Origin: Sphingopyxis sp. PAMC25046
GTDB lineage: Bacteria > Pseudomonadota > Alphaproteobacteria > Sphingomonadales > Sphingomonadaceae
DNA length: 64,000 nucleotides
Direction: 5' to 3'
Assembly: GCF_004795895.1 (NCBI RefSeq)
Contig: NZ_CP039250.1
Location: 2,604,001 to 2,668,000, forward strand
Positions 17,954-27,525 of the stretch are shown here, piece after piece (within the stretch, counting starts at the first letter, position 1; each line of letters starts with the position of its first letter). The notes under the pieces were generated by a model that saw only the letters and a list, made by a program, of their open reading frames with translations, ran no database searches and had not been told where the DNA came from. The position numbers and the translations under genes are program-made.

Positions 17954-18331
17954 TTAGAGCGTATAGGGAACGCGGATTCCCGGCATGTTGGCCGGAAAAT
18001 CCTTGGTATTTCGTGTCACCAGCACACGGCCGCGCGACTGGGCTGTCGCCAATATGATGGCGTCGGGCGATTTCAGGCGCGGCCGATCGCGGCGAAGGTT
18101 GGCGGCACGCCCTGCAATCTCCTCATCGACCTCGTCGACGCCGAAACCCGAAAGCAGCGTCTCCGCGCGGCGCAGCCCTTCGCCCTCGCCCTTCGACATC
18201 ACCTCGATCCACACCATCCGGCTTACCCAGAGACGGTCGCGTTGAAGCGCGCGCTCGATCTCCCGGCGCGCCTGGGGAAAACCGCGTAGTGCGTCGATCA
18301 ATATATTGCTGTCGAAAGTAAAGCCGCTCAC
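17954..18331 (-). CDS. PIN-domain ribonuclease toxin (VapC-like)
   Basis: Type II toxin of 125 residues. PIN-domain acidic residues are visible: Asp7 in FTFDSNILID, Glu in VWIEVMSKGE, Asp in KSPDAIILATA and Asp in TRNTKDFP. Such toxins cleave RNA and are neutralised by the upstream antitoxin. The GTG start at 18331 overlaps the antitoxin stop as GTGA, giving tight coupling; a longer upstream start would lie deep inside the antitoxin gene. Targets are unknown. It lies immediately before glmS. Confidence 0.88.
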   Translation of the reverse strand: MSGFTFDSNILIDALRGFPQARREIERALQRDRLWVSRMVWIEVMSKGEGEGLRRAETLLSGFGVDEVDEEIAGRAANLRRDRPRLKSPDAIILATAQSRGRVLVTRNTKDFPANMPGIRVPYTL

Positions 18332-18732
18332 GTCCGGCCTTGCTTCTTCTTTTTCTTCGGCTTGGTCGCCGACGCTTTCGAAGCGCCCAACGCGATACGG
18401 TTTTCGGCCGCCCATGCCTTATGAATTTCATGCTCGCGGTCATCGCCTTCGTCGAACAGGTCGGGAAATTCGGCGCGAACCTCGGCATAATCGGCATCCC
18501 ACGGCCGCGTCCATGACGCGCGTTCGCGTCGCTGCCATTCGACGGCATCGCCTATGTCGGTGCGATCTTTCCACGCCCCAAATCCGACGTCGAGCCAGTC
18601 CTTCGGTGTCTCGGCGCGATAGGCGGCCACGGCCTCGCGGAGCACTGAGGCGCGCGACTTCCCCTGCTCGGCCGCGAGCTGGTCGAGCCATTTGATGTCA
18701 TCGTCCGGCAGATCGGCAAGGATGCGAGTCAT
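18328..18732 (-). CDS. ribbon-helix-helix antitoxin
   Basis: Antitoxin of 134 residues. The N-terminal 45 residues (MTRILADLPDDDIKWLDQLAAEQGKSRASVLREAV) fit a CopG/ribbon-helix-helix DNA-binding domain; the acidic middle (residues ~75-105) would bind the toxin, and an unusual lysine run (KPKKKKKQ) ends the protein. It is longer than most VapB antitoxins. The upstream TGATATCA repeats are the likely autoregulatory operator. Pairing with the PIN toxin is clear from the GTGA overlap. Confidence 0.85.
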   Translation of the reverse strand: MTRILADLPDDDIKWLDQLAAEQGKSRASVLREAVAAYRAETPKDWLDVGFGAWKDRTDIGDAVEWQRRERASWTRPWDADYAEVRAEFPDLFDEGDDREHEIHKAWAAENRIALGASKASATKPKKKKKQGRT

Positions 18733-21485: not shown

Positions 21486-22148
21486 ATGAACGGATTTCCT
21501 TTTGCGATCGTCGGCTTCGATCTCGACGGCACGCTCATCGATACGCTCGGCGACCTTGCCGCGGCGGTCAATCACACGCTGGCGCGACTGGACCGCGCGC
21601 CGCTCGCCGAGGCCGCAGTGCGGCCGATGATCGGGCGCGGCGCGAAGCATATGCTCGAGGAGGGGCTTCGCGCTTCGGGCGGCGTCCCCGATGGCGCGGT
21701 CGAGCGTCTCTATCCCGAGCTGCTGCGCTTTTACGAAGCCCATATCGCGGTCCACAGCCTCCCCTTTCCGGGCGTCGTCGCAGCGCTCGACCGGCTCGAC
21801 GCGCTGGGCGTGCGCACCGCGGTCGTCACCAACAAGCTTGAGGGGCTCGCGCGGCAACTGCTCGGCGAACTGGGCCTCGCCGACCGCATGGCGACGATCA
21901 TCGGCGGCGACACGGTGGGAACACGCAAACCCTCCCCCGAACCGATCCGCGCGATGATCGAGCGGTGCGGCCGCGGGCGCACGGTCTTTGTCGGCGACAG
22001 CATCTATGACGTCATGGCGGCGAAACATGCGGGCGTGCCGAGCGTCGCGGCCAGCTTCGGCTTTCTCGACCGGCCCGCGGGCGAACTGGGCGCCGATCAT
22101 GTAATCGATCATTTCGACGAACTGGTCCCGCTGCTCGCGCGGCTCTAG
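21486..22148 (+). CDS. gph: phosphoglycolate phosphatase-like HAD hydrolase
   Basis: HAD phosphatase of 220 residues with motif I GFDLDGTLIDTLGDL at residue ~10, motif II AVVTNKLEG, and KPSPEPIRAMIE plus FVGDSIYDVMAAKHAG for motifs III and IV. This is the canonical Gph arrangement, removing phosphate from 2-phosphoglycolate, although close HAD relatives have other substrates. It is divergent from glmU and its last 4 bp overlap the stop of the convergent nucleotidyltransferase gene. Confidence 0.88.
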   Translation: MNGFPFAIVGFDLDGTLIDTLGDLAAAVNHTLARLDRAPLAEAAVRPMIGRGAKHMLEEGLRASGGVPDGAVERLYPELLRFYEAHIAVHSLPFPGVVAALDRLDALGVRTAVVTNKLEGLARQLLGELGLADRMATIIGGDTVGTRKPSPEPIRAMIERCGRGRTVFVGDSIYDVMAAKHAGVPSVAASFGFLDRPAGELGADHVIDHFDELVPLLARL

Positions 22149-23158
22149 CGCTTGCGCCACTTCGTCCAGAGATGCTTTGCGAGCATCGCGGGCGGCATGC
22201 GCAGCCAGTGCGAGCGGATGTAAAAAGCCTGCTCGAGCAGCGGGTTCGTCACCCGCCCCCAGTCGTCGCGCGCGAGCAGGCGGCGGCGGAACCAGCCATC
22301 GGCCGGATCCTGCCGGTCCCACCCGCCCGGCAGCGCCGCGCCATAAAGGTCGCGCGACAGCCGCGCGGCGCGATGCACCGCGCCCCGCAGCCCGTGCAGG
22401 TCGGCGCGCCCGTCGAGCCGCCCCCAAAACCCCGCGTCGGCAGCCGCGAAATCGCGCGTCATCAGGTGAAAATCCCACAGGTTGCGCAAGCCCCCCTGCA
22501 GATCGCCGTCGGCGAGCATGTGCGCCGCGCAATGCGCCGCCATGTCCGCCGGTTGCAGCACCGCAAAGCCGCCGTCGCTCGTCACCGCATCGCTGACCAG
22601 CGCGAGCGCGTCGGGGGTAATCCGGTGCGTCTTGGGCAGGATCGTGTGGTGGACATCGATCATCCGGTCGCGGCCCGAGTGGATCATCGGCGGCAGCTCG
22701 TGCATGTGCGCGCGGTAATAATGATCGTCATAGGGGTCCGACTTGACCCATTCCCAGCCCGCATTGAGCAGCGCATTTTCGGCGCGGCGGATGTCGGTGG
22801 CGAGGACGAGGATATCGAGGTCGCCGATCTGTCGCCCCGCCGCGCAGCCCATCCCGGCGGCGGCATAGGCTGCGCCTTTCAGGAGAACGAACTCGATCCC
22901 CACCGGCGCGAGCGCGCGGCGCGCCATTTCGGCTTCCCACAAGGCATGGCGCTGCGCGACCTCTGCCGCCGCGCGCTGATCGGCGAACAGCGCGGCAACG
23001 GCGGGCGGGAGTGCCGCGCCGTCGAGCCGGTGCGCGAGCGTTGCGAGCATCGCTTCGCTGCGCGCGACCCCGATCACGCCCTCCCAGTCGCGCGGCGCGA
23101 GCGTCGCCGGATCGCGCCGCCCGGCGAGCAGGTCGACGAAGGCGGCGACGGCGCTCAC
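22145..23158 (-). CDS. nucleotidyltransferase-fold protein of HPr-rel-A type cluster
   Basis: Protein of 337 residues resembling the uncharacterised NTP_transf_5 nucleotidyltransferase family: FVLLKGAAYAAAG around residues 90-102 and RQIGDLDILV with the acidic pair D113/D115 match the family's metal-binding strand. The rest is alpha-helical. The GTG at 23158 is chosen because GGAGG lies 7 bases upstream and it overlaps the kinase stop as GTGA; an ATG six codons earlier is less well placed. It is the last gene of the MarR-PqqD-HprK-nucleotidyltransferase operon. Substrate and role are unknown. Confidence 0.8.
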   Translation of the reverse strand: MSAVAAFVDLLAGRRDPATLAPRDWEGVIGVARSEAMLATLAHRLDGAALPPAVAALFADQRAAAEVAQRHALWEAEMARRALAPVGIEFVLLKGAAYAAAGMGCAAGRQIGDLDILVLATDIRRAENALLNAGWEWVKSDPYDDHYYRAHMHELPPMIHSGRDRMIDVHHTILPKTHRITPDALALVSDAVTSDGGFAVLQPADMAAHCAAHMLADGDLQGGLRNLWDFHLMTRDFAAADAGFWGRLDGRADLHGLRGAVHRAARLSRDLYGAALPGGWDRQDPADGWFRRRLLARDDWGRVTNPLLEQAFYIRSHWLRMPPAMLAKHLWTKWRKR

Positions 23159-24021
23159 CGTGCCGCCTCCGCCCATAATTCTTCTACCAGCGCGATCCCC
23201 GCCGCGCTGTCGGGATAGGTGATGCCGAACGCCGGCGTTTCGCGAACGAGCCGCGTCAGCGCCGCAAAGCCCGCTTCGCCGAGCGCGACATAATTGGTCG
23301 ATGCCTCGGTCAGCCGGACGAAGGCCTCGCCCTCGCCCATCGGCTCGATGCCCGCCGTGCCGCCGAAGCGCGGAAAGAGCAGCAGCGCCGGGCGCGCTGG
23401 CGCGTGCATCGCGGCGATCGCATCGGCGCGCGGGATCAGGTGGCGGATGTCGCCCTTGGGCGTGCCGGCGAGCAGAGGGCCGAGCCGCTCCGGGTCGACG
23501 CGCGCCGCGACCTCGGTAATCGCTTCATTCTTGAGGCTCACGGCGCGCGGAAAGGCGAAGGCGTCGCCGCCCGCCGGGTCGATCAGCGTAAACTCGTCGC
23601 CCATCAGCCGCCAATCGCCCTCGCCGAGCAGCGCGGCGAGGGTCGATTTGCCCGAGCCCGATTCGCCCGACATGATCAGCGCGCGGCTGTCCCGCGCGAC
23701 CGCGCTCGCGTGGAGCAGCAGGTGCCGCCGCCATCCCAATGCAACCTGCAGGTTCATTCCCATTTCGGCGGCGAGCAGCCCCATCGACAGCGGCAGCGGA
23801 AGCGCGCCGGGAACGACGAAATCGCCGCCGATATGCACCGACGGGCGCAGCCGGCGCCGCCACGGCCGCGCCGCGAACAACCGCACCGTCGCGTCGGCGG
23901 GGCGCGCATCGTCGCGCGGATAATTGGCATAGAGATGTTCGAGCGCCGCGACGGGTCCGGCCCAATCGCTGCCGATGCGAAATTGCACCGGCCCGACGGC
24001 AATGCGCACGCTGTGCCTCAT
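23155..24021 (-). CDS. HprK-related kinase (HprK-related kinase A type)
   Basis: Protein of 288 residues related to the C-terminal domain of HPr kinase/phosphorylase. Walker A GESGSGKST is at 119-127, preceded by LLLHASAVAR (the HprK-type 'HAS' strand) and followed by WRLMGDEFTLID, the expected acidic strand. Classical HprK phosphorylates HPr of the sugar phosphotransferase system, but this subfamily is known mainly by its association with a PqqD-like protein and a nucleotidyltransferase, and its substrate is unknown. The start overlaps the PqqD-like stop (ATGA), and the stop overlaps the nucleotidyltransferase start. Confidence 0.85.
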   Translation of the reverse strand: MRHSVRIAVGPVQFRIGSDWAGPVAALEHLYANYPRDDARPADATVRLFAARPWRRRLRPSVHIGGDFVVPGALPLPLSMGLLAAEMGMNLQVALGWRRHLLLHASAVARDSRALIMSGESGSGKSTLAALLGEGDWRLMGDEFTLIDPAGGDAFAFPRAVSLKNEAITEVAARVDPERLGPLLAGTPKGDIRHLIPRADAIAAMHAPARPALLLFPRFGGTAGIEPMGEGEAFVRLTEASTNYVALGEAGFAALTRLVRETPAFGITYPDSAAGIALVEELWAEAAR

Positions 24022-24299
24022 GCGCGCTCCACCAGCCCCATCGCCGCGAGTTCGCAGAGCCGCTCGGTGAGGATCGGCTGCGCATCCTCGGTGCTGTCAA
24101 GGTTGAAGGTCGCTGCAAGCCGCTCGGTAACCTGCGCGGGGGTGCAGGCGTCGGCGCCCATTGCGTCCAATATCTCGGGCATCGGCGAGACGACGAGGTG
24201 CGTCTGCATCGAACGCCGGTCGAAAATCGCGGTCAGCTCGCCGATCGACTCGACCCGCAGCGCATCGGCCGGAGCGGCGCGATAGGCGCGATCAGCCAT
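24018..24299 (-). CDS. PqqD-family protein of HPr-rel-A type system
   Basis: Small protein of 93 residues with the PqqD-like winged-helix pattern: an N-terminal strand pair (ADALRVESIGELTAIFDRRSMQTHLV), then SPMPEILDAMG, PAQVTERLAATF and ILTERLCELAAMGLVE. PqqD-like domains act as peptide chaperones that bind leader peptides of modified peptides, so the neighbours may act on a peptide or carrier. No precursor peptide was recognised nearby. It overlaps MarR by 8 bp and the kinase by 4 bp. Confidence 0.8.
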   Translation of the reverse strand: MADRAYRAAPADALRVESIGELTAIFDRRSMQTHLVVSPMPEILDAMGADACTPAQVTERLAATFNLDSTEDAQPILTERLCELAAMGLVERA

Positions 24300-24738
24300 A
24301 ATCTTCGGCGGCGGCGGTCAGTTTGGCAAGGATGGCCATCAGCTTCGCGCGTTCGCCCGCGCTGATGTTCGATTCGAGCTGCGCCTCGCTCGCGAGCGCT
24401 GCGGGAACGATCGCGTCATAGAGCGAGCGGCCGGTTTCGGTGAGCTCGAGATGGTGCGAGCGCCCGTCGGCCTCATGCGCCTGGCGCGCGATCAACTGGC
24501 GATCCGCGAGCGCCTTTGCGGCGCGGTTCACCGTCACCTTGTCCATGCGCGTCGCGGCGACCAGCTCGCGCTGCGTCTTGGGCTGGCCTTCGCCGAGTAC
24601 CGCCATCAGCCGCCATTCGGGAATCTTGAGTCCGAAACGATTCTCATATTCGGCGGCGATCCGGCTCGACAGGGCATTGGATGCGATGGAGAGGCGGTAG
24701 GGCAGGAAATTGTCCAGATTCAGCGTCTTCGCGGTCAT
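24292..24738 (-). CDS. MarR-family transcriptional regulator
   Basis: Winged-helix regulator of 148 residues. The DNA-binding core WRLMAVLGEGQPKTQRELVAATRMDKVTVNRAAKALADRQLIARQ and the wing EADGRSHHLELTETG are typical MarR. It is the first gene of the operon with the PqqD-like, HprK-related and nucleotidyltransferase genes, whose start it overlaps by 8 bp, so it may regulate that operon; the ligand is unknown. About 88 bp separate it from the upstream TonB receptor stop. Confidence 0.92.
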   Translation of the reverse strand: MTAKTLNLDNFLPYRLSIASNALSSRIAAEYENRFGLKIPEWRLMAVLGEGQPKTQRELVAATRMDKVTVNRAAKALADRQLIARQAHEADGRSHHLELTETGRSLYDAIVPAALASEAQLESNISAGERAKLMAILAKLTAAAEDYG

Positions 24739-24826: not shown

Positions 24827-26896
24827 TCAGAAAGACAGGCGCGCGCCGATCCACAAGGTCCGCGGCGTCGCGCGCTCTACGATGCCCGACGAGGAAATCG
24901 CGGCCGGAACCAACTCGTCGAACAGATTCTCGCCGCGCGCCTCGATGCTGATCGCGTCGCTGAACTGCCACGACAGCCCGGCATCGAGTGTGAGAGCGTC
25001 ATCAAGCGCGAGCAGCCCCAGATCGTCCTCATTCTGCTCGCCGATATAGCGCAGCGTCGCAAAGCCGCCGAGCGGGCCGCTCGCATGGCTGCGCAGCGAG
25101 ACGCTGCCGCCATGCCTCGCGATCTGCGCCGGGCGGCGGCCGTCGAGCGTTGCTGCTCCGCCCGACGCGTCCACTTCCGCGTCGGTGAAGGCATAGGTGG
25201 CGCGCAGCGTCGCGGGCCCGATCCGCTGCTCCGCCGCCACCTCGACGCCCTTGCTCTCGATCGCGTCGAGATTCTGTCGCTGGTTGAGGTTCGGCGCGAG
25301 CGTCACATTGGCGATCGCGTTCGTGAGCCGGTTGGCAAAGAGCGTCGCCGACAATTTCGTGTCACCGCTTTCCCAGTCGGCGCCGACCTCGCCGCCCCAC
25401 AGCCGTTCGGGCTTCAGCGACTCGTTCGCCATCGTCGTCTCGGCGCCGACGCGGAACGGGCGGTAAAGCTCGTTGAGCGTCGGCAGCCGCCAGCCGCGAT
25501 AGGCGGCGGCACGCAGCGAAACAGCATCCGACGTCCAGCGCACGCCCGCGCGCCCGCCGCCTTCCCATCCCTGCCGCGCGGCAAAGCGGAGGTCGGTGAT
25601 GACCGGCCCGCCGCCGCGATTGCGCTCGAGCCGATAGCCGGTGCCGAGCCACCAGCGATCGACACGCCCGCTCAGCGTCCAGAGGAAGCCGTCGCTCGCA
25701 TCGCCCGAGGTCCATTCGGCGAAGGCGCCGACGGTATCGCTGCGGCCCCCGGCGGAGCGGTGGCGGCCGGGAATGCCACCGGTAAAGAAGAAATCCTCCT
25801 CGGTCCGGCCGGTCGTGCGGCGCCAGTCGGCGCCGATACGTAGCGGGTTCGCGTCGCCGATCGCGGGGCGCAGCTCGAAGCGACCGCCGAGACCGGTCGC
25901 GGGGATGCGCTGGAACAAGACGGGGTTCGCGCTATCGCGCTCCGCCGCGACGCTCGCGAAACCGCTCTCGAAATCGCGAAGCTGGACATAGCCGAGCGCG
26001 AGCCACTGGGTCGCGCCTGCCGGATCGTGAACAAAGCGCAGGCTGGCATCGACGCCGTCGGTCCTGCTGGTCGTAAAATCGACCCCGCGGTCGCGCCGGT
26101 CCGAAAAGCCGCGGACGCTCGCTTCGATCCGGCCGTCGTCGCCGGCATCGAAACGCAGGCGCAAACCAAGCCCGCCCTGTTCGTAGGGCGCCGCGCGGTC
26201 GGCCGACCCGCGCTGGCCCTTCACGACGGGGATGAAGCCGTCGCCCCGGGTATAGCGCCCGTCGACGGCGACCTGACCGGCACCGATCTCGCCGCCGATC
26301 GACGCCGTCGCATCCCAGCCGTCGCGGCTGCCATAGGCAAGGCTTGCCTCGGCGCCGTCGGTCATTTCGGAGTAGAGGCCGACGGTTCCCGCGAGCGCAC
26401 CGGGGCCGTCCACCCCGCTGCCCCCACCGCGCGTGACGATCACCCCGCCGAGATTGATCGCGTCATAGGCGCCCCACGCGACCCAGCCGCCAAAGGGGTC
26501 CGCCTGCGGTACACCGTCGAGCGTCACAAGCGCGCGACTCGATGCGTTGCCGCCGAGACCGCGCAGCGTCACGCCCTGGCTCGTCGGATGCGCGCTGCGT
26601 CCGTCGCTGCGACGGAATTGGACAATGCCCGCTTCGTCACGCAGACGGTTTTCGATGCGGGAACCCAATCCGAATTCGGGATAGGCGATAAGGCTGGAAC
26701 CTTGCACCGTATCGCTGTCGGCGGGCTGAAGCGAGCCGCTACCCCGGACGACGATGATTTCGGTCGCAACGCGCGGAACCCAGAAGCTGCAACAGCCCCC
26801 ATCGAATTCCGCCTCGCCATGCTCGGCTTGCTCCGTCTGCGCCATCGCGCCCGCCGGCAACGCCAGCGCCGCAACCCCTGCTATCAGGCGAATCAC
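24827..26896 (-). CDS. TonB-dependent outer-membrane receptor
   Basis: Outer-membrane receptor of 689 residues. A signal peptide (LIAGVAALALPAGAMAQ) is followed by an odd Cys-Cys pair (GGCCSFWVPR), then TEIIVVRGSG (TonB-box region), a plug (RLRDEAGIVQFRRSDGRSAHPTSQGVTLRG...DGVPQADPFGGW) and a barrel ending ...WIGARLSF with terminal Phe. The GTG start at 26896 overlaps the isomerase stop (GTGA). Ligand unknown; the plug motif resembles the vitamin B12/siderophore-type group only loosely. Last gene of the beta-helix/cytochrome/isomerase/receptor run. Confidence 0.93.
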   Translation of the reverse strand: MIRLIAGVAALALPAGAMAQTEQAEHGEAEFDGGCCSFWVPRVATEIIVVRGSGSLQPADSDTVQGSSLIAYPEFGLGSRIENRLRDEAGIVQFRRSDGRSAHPTSQGVTLRGLGGNASSRALVTLDGVPQADPFGGWVAWGAYDAINLGGVIVTRGGGSGVDGPGALAGTVGLYSEMTDGAEASLAYGSRDGWDATASIGGEIGAGQVAVDGRYTRGDGFIPVVKGQRGSADRAAPYEQGGLGLRLRFDAGDDGRIEASVRGFSDRRDRGVDFTTSRTDGVDASLRFVHDPAGATQWLALGYVQLRDFESGFASVAAERDSANPVLFQRIPATGLGGRFELRPAIGDANPLRIGADWRRTTGRTEEDFFFTGGIPGRHRSAGGRSDTVGAFAEWTSGDASDGFLWTLSGRVDRWWLGTGYRLERNRGGGPVITDLRFAARQGWEGGGRAGVRWTSDAVSLRAAAYRGWRLPTLNELYRPFRVGAETTMANESLKPERLWGGEVGADWESGDTKLSATLFANRLTNAIANVTLAPNLNQRQNLDAIESKGVEVAAEQRIGPATLRATYAFTDAEVDASGGAATLDGRRPAQIARHGGSVSLRSHASGPLGGFATLRYIGEQNEDDLGLLALDDALTLDAGLSWQFSDAISIEARGENLFDELVPAAISSSGIVERATPRTLWIGARLSF

Positions 26897-27525
26897 GCCG
26901 GCTTGACCGCGTCGGGATGCGCGTTCTGGAACGCCTCCAGCTCCATGCACGCCGCATCGATCGCGACGAGCCGCGGATAATCGTCGAGCGGGGTCTCGAA
27001 CCGCCGCGCATTATACATCTGCGGGACGAGGCAGCAGTCGGCGATCCCCGGCGTGTCACCGCCTAGGAAGCGCCCCTCGCCCGCCATCGCTTCGAGCGCG
27101 TCGAAGCCCTGGGTGATCCAGTGGCGATACCAGCGGTCCTTGGTCTGTTCGTTAAGCCCGAGGTCGCGCTTCAGATATTTGAGCACGCGCAGATTGTTGA
27201 GCGGGTGGATGTCGCTCGCGATCACCTGCGCGCGTGCGAGCGCGACCGCGCGCGGCATGGCATCTTCGGGGATCAGCCGCGGTTCGGGAAAGGCGCGGTC
27301 GAGCCAGTCGATGATCGCCATGCTCTGGATGATCGGTTCGCCATCGACGACGAGCATCGGAACGAAGCCCTGTGCATTCTGCTCGAGATAGGCGTCGCTG
27401 CGCTGCTCGCCCGCGATCAGGCTGACCTCGACGCGGCTATAGTCGAGCCCTTTCAGGTTCATCGCGATGCGAACGCGAAAGCTGGCCGAGGAGCGGAAAT
27501 AATCGTGGAGGACGAGCTGGGTCAT
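26893..27525 (-). CDS. maiA: maleylacetoacetate isomerase (zeta-class GST)
   Basis: Glutathione-dependent isomerase of 210 residues. The N-terminal thioredoxin domain has SSASFRVRIAMNLKGL, the zeta-class SSxSxRVRIA motif (here SSAS instead of SSCS), and the conserved NAQGFVPMLVVDG and IIQSMAIIDWLD segments; the C-terminal helical domain follows with PGIADCCLVPQMYNARRF. The family acts in tyrosine/homogentisate breakdown, but hmgA and fahA are not adjacent, so the pathway is inference. It starts 7 nt after the cytochrome stop and overlaps the TonB receptor start. Confidence 0.92.
   Translation of the reverse strand: MTQLVLHDYFRSSASFRVRIAMNLKGLDYSRVEVSLIAGEQRSDAYLEQNAQGFVPMLVVDGEPIIQSMAIIDWLDRAFPEPRLIPEDAMPRAVALARAQVIASDIHPLNNLRVLKYLKRDLGLNEQTKDRWYRHWITQGFDALEAMAGEGRFLGGDTPGIADCCLVPQMYNARRFETPLDDYPRLVAIDAACMELEAFQNAHPDAVKPA

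Follow-up and report, generated by a model that had tools for sequence, protein, structure and literature searches.

The 64,000-nucleotide stretch of DNA analysed here (the window; positions 2604001-2668000 of the single-contig, 4,497,392-base genome of Sphingopyxis sp. PAMC25046) carries on its minus strand adjoining genes for a PqqD-like protein, an HprK-related kinase and a nucleotidyltransferase, preceded by a MarR-family regulator, and an earlier note on this sequence could see no substrate for them. Every sampled genome of the order Sphingomonadales that encodes the kinase also encodes a small protein with an RR-type export signal, which in the window's own genus has mostly been parted from the enzymes by a rearrangement. 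We think it probable that the PqqD-like protein, the kinase and the transferase are a cytoplasmic module that modifies this small exported partner.

Co-occurrence of the kinase set and an exported partner

Among 247 Sphingomonadales genomes the kinase, called with the TIGR04352 profile, was present in 102 (100 above the cut-off, together with G084 at 197.7 bits and G006 at 187.8 bits), and the next match scored 54.1 bits. Searching the same 247 genomes with a profile of the partner (A2, with 31 rows from 29 of the 102 kinase genomes, the remaining 73 being independent of the profile) gave matches at E <= 0.01 in 105 genomes, namely all 102 with the kinase and 3 of the 145 without it (Fisher test, 7e-67). 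The three kinase-free matches are weak (E 1.3e-4 to 9.5e-3), and the weakest of the 102 (G006, E 0.003) lies about 1 kb from its own kinase; at E <= 1e-6 the partner is found in 101 of the 102 kinase genomes and in 0 of the 145 others. Even within one genus, g10, three genomes have both genes and three have neither. Partner and kinase lie within 5 kb of each other in 88 of the 102 genomes and apart in 14, of which 12 belong to the window's genus and the other two are G045 and G037, the latter a fragmented genome.

The enzymes themselves form a conserved neighbourhood, as the earlier note had supposed. Forty Sphingomonadales kinase loci were fetched as stretches of up to 20 kb with neighbours from simple open reading frame (ORF) calling, and a named sample of 80 kinase loci was compiled, 13 of them Sphingopyxis-type; among the 13 named kinases closest to the window's, 12 carry the label Sphingopyxis and 1 the label Sphingomonadaceae bacterium. 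The PqqD-like gene adjoins the kinase in 80/80 named loci and the transferase does so in 79/80, the exception (L170) stopping right past the kinase; this clustering exceeds chance. In the fetched loci the PqqD-like ORF is located ahead of the paired kinase and transferase, followed in many cases by an opposite-strand HAD phosphatase and then glmU and glmS. In most non-Sphingopyxis genera of the order the gene for the short RR-leader protein comes immediately before the PqqD-like gene, and the partner adjoins the set in 66 of the 67 named loci that are not Sphingopyxis-type. Searches of the window found neither an HPr nor a copy of the partner, just as had been noted earlier, so that the missing substrate describes the window and not the system: a candidate exported partner is present in all 102 kinase-bearing genomes. 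The earlier note had also named a conserved, unrelated partner explaining the set as a refutation of its reading, and the RR-leader protein is such a partner.

A wider sample of 398 genomes from the phylum gave kinase matches with E no worse than 1e-25 in 62, and 49 of these lie outside Sphingomonadales. Twenty of these 49 loci were fetched, and in 20/20 an RR-leader ORF of 158-287 aa was seen by eye directly upstream of the PqqD-like gene; a fixed mechanical rule for such leaders was positive in 16 of the 20, compared with 15 of 514 background ORFs. The outside partners fall into class A (10 loci), which has a C-terminal SCW.S, and class B (10/20), which has no C-terminal C..S and in five cases has C(S/T)(I/V/L)SG following the signal. 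In the kinase tree class A is parted from class B, except for L123, a split that could equally follow organism lineage. Flanking genes differ outside the order, and the RR-leader protein remains.

The enzymes, the partner and a proposed pathway

The genes and motifs of the set, in window coordinates, are as follows.

24292-24738, minus strand: MarR-family regulator, 148 aa (PF12802, E 6.9e-13)
24018-24299, minus strand: PqqD-like protein, a predicted discrete RiPP (ribosomally synthesized and post-translationally modified peptide) recognition element, 93 aa (TIGR04353, 42.3 bits, cut-off 35)
23155-24021, minus strand: HprK-related kinase A, 288 aa (TIGR04352, 217.1 bits, cut-off 200)
23641-23667, minus strand: Walker A motif GESGSGKST, kinase residues 119-127 (translation and kinase alignment)
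22145-23176, minus strand: NTP_transf_5 nucleotidyltransferase, 343 aa from ATG (PF14907, E 6.2e-50)
22814-22822, minus strand: DLD acidic motif, D119-L-D121 of the nucleotidyltransferase (numbered from ATG 23176)

The four genes between 22145 and 24738, with their families, are as first described, and the Walker A sequence is seen in the translation at the residues given before. Overlaps of 8, 4 and 4 bp had been reported: those of the MarR and PqqD-like genes (8 bp) and of the PqqD-like and kinase genes (4 bp) stand, while that of kinase and transferase depends on two equally possible transferase starts, being 4 bp with GTG 23158 and 22 bp with ATG 23176. The MarR gene, previously called fused, is a separate gene that overlaps its neighbour. 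Both the kinase and the PqqD-like protein score above their curated cut-offs, so that the pair belongs by score to HPr-rel-A (TIGR04352/TIGR04353), a grouping for which the NCBIfam descriptions returned name no substrate.

In its predicted structure the PqqD-like protein resembles a RiPP recognition element (RRE). Its AF2 model (pLDDT 90.8) has as its nine best PDB matches TbiB1 (with leader peptide), ThcOx, lasso B1 and PqqD structures, cyanobactin RREs included, at a probability of 1.00, E 3e-3 to 1.3e-2 (none at E 0.001) and TM by query of 0.53-0.67; sequence searches of solved structures with the kinase, the transferase and the PqqD-like protein gave nothing useful. Kinase residues H104, K125, D142 and E143 are identical in 61/61 aligned kinases, and transferase residues E81, D119, D121 and D174 in 59/59 aligned rows; these are the likely catalytic residues of the two enzymes.

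The partner begins with an RR-type export signal, and its body contains two Cys and one Ser that never vary, in a C-terminal C..S motif that reads GFTC(Y/F)AS in this family; the R, L and G of the signal, the two Cys and one Ser are invariant in the 31-row alignment. Those 31 rows were chosen with the C..S pattern, making its conservation there partly one of selection, and the motif is also kept in 49 further rows (taken from 66 found by the profile, one other row being dropped for masked letters), or 80/80 in total. By length, the body of the partner is about 70-230 aa. Its predicted structure has a mean pLDDT of 69.6, with the body mostly at about 90, and finds no PDB match at E below 1. None of 18 partner proteins reaches any cut-off in Pfam or NCBIfam. 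The genome's own partner has 1693 homologues; among the 120 matches listed, none has a Pfam domain and those named by their source are ‘hypothetical protein’. Two loci, L015 and L047, each contain two RR-leader partner genes, and a single enzyme set may thus serve two substrates there. In several Sphingomonas-type loci (L143-L209) a recurring string like TTTACGATTGTGAAAGGGC is found ahead of the partner gene, possibly a shared promoter.

The partnership, the rearrangement, the RRE-like fold and the conserved residues are computational results. We infer that the partner is modified before export, at a residue and with a group suggested by related systems. The PqqD-like RRE would dock the precursor, presumably by binding its leader; the HprK-related kinase would phosphorylate a Ser, most likely the invariant one; the NTP_transf_5 enzyme would add a nucleotidyl or sugar group, perhaps on the phosphate, as PsmN does in pseudomycoidin; and the partner would then be exported and its signal removed. 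This order is proposed because the linear polyphosphorylated peptides (LPPs) of Bacillota and pseudomycoidin combine the same three activities. In pseudomycoidin PsmN adds hexoses to phospho-Ser, and the paeninodin-type kinases PadeK, ThcoK, SyanK and PsmK are HprK-like enzymes that phosphorylate the C-terminal Ser of the precursor (PMC9266682). For the LPPs, it is reported that LppK puts phosphates on one precursor Ser and that deletion of LppN gave no visible change (PMC13381572, Nat Commun 2026).

The LPP systems resemble the window set in combining a discrete RRE, an HprK-like kinase and an NTP transferase (uncharacterised in the LPPs), in having a precursor whose N-terminal region is conserved and whose C-terminus varies, in often being sited in capsular polysaccharide loci, in a core without a macrolactam cyclase and, putatively, in having the leader removed by a signal-peptidase homologue. 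The present set differs in its occurrence in Proteobacteria rather than Bacillota, in a leader that is RR/Tat-like (Tat, twin-arginine translocation) and has no Y..P motif (0/81), and in the partner body of about 70-230 aa; a SipW-like peptidase or MsbA-like exporter was not recognised among the conserved neighbour clusters, not all of which were identified by family search. With the tailoring of paeninodin- and pseudomycoidin-type lasso peptides it shares an HprK-like kinase, a nucleotidyltransferase homologue and a discrete B1 protein, while differing in that no lasso cyclase or B2 protease is seen within the set and that the putative substrate is an exported protein. Our best reading, by analogy, is that the set is a Proteobacterial variant of the RRE/HprK-like kinase/NTP-transferase logic of paeninodin-type lasso peptides and Bacillota LPPs. 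The stepwise modification of a peptide or carrier suggested in the earlier note is in this respect carried forward as a leader-guided peptide or protein module, consistent with the RRE-like model and the invariant, likely catalytic residues, and the absence of a substrate is dropped.

Several observations weigh against this reading. The partner is not adjacent in L154, where it was looked for at the locus only. The mechanical RR-leader rule was positive in just 25 of the 40 fetched Sphingomonadales loci, the 15 misses being 5 Sphingopyxis loci, L014 (partner elsewhere), L036 (contig end) and 8 in which the partner was recognised by reading; and one of the 25 positives, L022, is probably a different ORF because its partner lies 4.4 kb upstream. 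Tat-signal models gave sub-threshold matches only to the 18 partner proteins, the RR, hydrophobic stretch and A.A of the signals having been seen by eye. The lasso/LPP RRE motif [YW]xxPx[VLIAFY] occurs in 0 of 81 partners. A single common phosphosite is not established, because class B (10/20 outside loci) has no C-terminal C..S. Finally, of 60 loci 2 (L121 and L124) gave no transferase; since these hold the partner, the PqqD-like gene and the kinase, the pathway may be able to dispense with the transferase step.

The leading alternative, which we nevertheless regard as unlikely, is that the partner, perhaps an exopolysaccharide factor that is exported, is inherited along with the enzymes as a client of one and the same pathway, and that the kinase acts on a lipid carrier, a sugar or another molecule. 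In favour of this, each of the 10 class-A outside loci contains a gene related to the XrtA/PEP-CTERM-system glycosyltransferase or amidotransferase (family names taken from Sphingomonadales representatives), two of them also with FemAB and deacetylase relatives, and an exosortase is found in 98 of the 102 kinase genomes compared with 98 of the 145 without the kinase (hand count; Fisher test, 7e-9), the four kinase genomes without one being draft assemblies in 60 to 400 contigs. One exosortase is encoded in the window's genome, and an exosortase cluster is present in 5 of the 40 fetched Sphingomonadales loci; an exosortase query found nothing in the class-A stretches. Exosortases are, however, common without the kinase too, whereas partner and kinase occur together in 102/102 genomes even when unlinked, and a peptide substrate is favoured because of the discrete RRE-like fold.

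Separation of the partner from the enzymes in Sphingopyxis

The genome's own partner gene (G000:C1:2467547-2467960, minus strand, 137 aa) lies some 160 kb away from the kinase. In each of the 40 genomes sampled from the genus there is one strong partner match (E 8.9e-59 or better), and the partner is apart from the kinase in 12 of 15. In nine stretches of about 20 kb from the genus (L070-L078), the partner is divergent from phoR and neither the kinase nor other enzymes of the set are present; the kinase position was looked up for five of these nine genomes (all except G247, G250, G260 and G274). Another locus of the genus, L079, retains the intact order phoR, partner, pqqD, kinase, transferase, glmU, and in other genera phoR is also present, in 62 of the 80 named loci. 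The phoR label denotes a best family of PhoR at a score under the cut-off, and the names of the pst/pho neighbours come from family search for four proteins and from reading for the rest. Because L070-L078 are without the enzymes, L079 is intact and phoR is beside the set in other genera, we conclude that a break between the partner and the PqqD-like gene parted the partner from the enzymes in most of the genus. The partner gene stayed by phoR and the enzymes by glmU/glmS, now with MarR upstream. After a single rearrangement of this kind, inspection of the neighbouring genes can miss a substrate.

Pho-box-like sequences before the partner (44 loci) had a best score of 8.9 compared with 8.4 in shuffled sequence, and 30% of the loci compared with 6% of the shuffles had at least 10 matching bases. 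This slight excess neither argues for Pho regulation of the partner nor rules it out, since the 14 sites printed share no place or strand.

The MarR gene adjoins the set in 13 of the 80 named loci, every one of them Sphingopyxis-type (13/13 of that type). It is a genus-specific neighbour outside the conserved system, and its proposed role as a conserved signal input was rejected for this reason. A gene for a TonB-dependent receptor (24827-26950, minus strand) ends 88 bp ahead of MarR, and a receptor match is found upstream in 11 of the 13 Sphingopyxis-type loci, one of them weak. The split might also have placed the set under MarR control and given it a new role apart from its old partner, in keeping with the 8-bp overlap of MarR with the PqqD-like gene and the retention of MarR in all 13 Sphingopyxis-type loci; the partner is likewise kept, in 40/40 genomes of the genus, and we give this idea little credence.

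The separation also bears on the suggestion, already disfavoured and very improbable, that only a stable position near phoR and glmU/glmS is conserved and that the co-occurrence reflects lineage. The frequency of phoR and the HAD-glmU-glmS order downstream in several families would agree with it, but both halves are retained in the window-genus genomes in which they lie apart, g10 varies within a genus, and outside the order the RR-leader protein persists with variable flanks.

Relation to HprK and wider significance

The kinase resembles HprK in what we take to be shared features, a P-loop, an upstream invariant His and a downstream Asp. That it has HPr or HPr-like proteins as its substrates is highly doubtful despite this distant similarity and the invariant His, Lys and Asp: Hpr_kinase_C (PF07475) gave no match in it at E 0.1, and the same chromosome encodes a classical HprK of its own, some 1.6 kb from an HPr, plus a second HPr, on which grounds HPr was rejected as the substrate.

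No macrolactam cyclase belonging to the set was identified in 41 loci, 4 of which have an amidotransferase cluster nearby, the one tested being XrtA-system TIGR03108. Three loci from genomes with this set (L214-L216) have other, weak-scoring HprK-like kinases near ORFs that best match lasso cyclase, below the NCBIfam cut-off. At 17954-18732 of the window are two small ORFs that by reading alone resemble a ribbon-helix-helix antitoxin and a PIN toxin, and 12-13 of 41 loci have clusters of such small ORFs in the interval from glmU to glmS. A defence-system library gave just weak CARF-type matches to MarR. A description of this system was not found in the open-licence PMC articles searched.

More broadly, and tentatively, we suggest a widespread Proteobacterial RRE-guided class in which exported RR-signal proteins would, while still inside the cell, receive a phosphate and on it a nucleotidyl or sugar group, and might then contribute to the assembly of XrtA-type exopolysaccharide or of the envelope; these would be the first substrates for the TIGR04352/TIGR04353 kinase family. 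A kinase, chaperone and transferase set for which our searches found no described substrate, seen in 62 of 398 genomes of the phylum, thereby becomes a testable pathway with a candidate substrate and a candidate residue. If the proposal is true, phospho-Ser tailoring as known from lasso and LPP peptides would also apply to proteins that Gram-negative bacteria export, and exopolysaccharide clusters may be connected with it.

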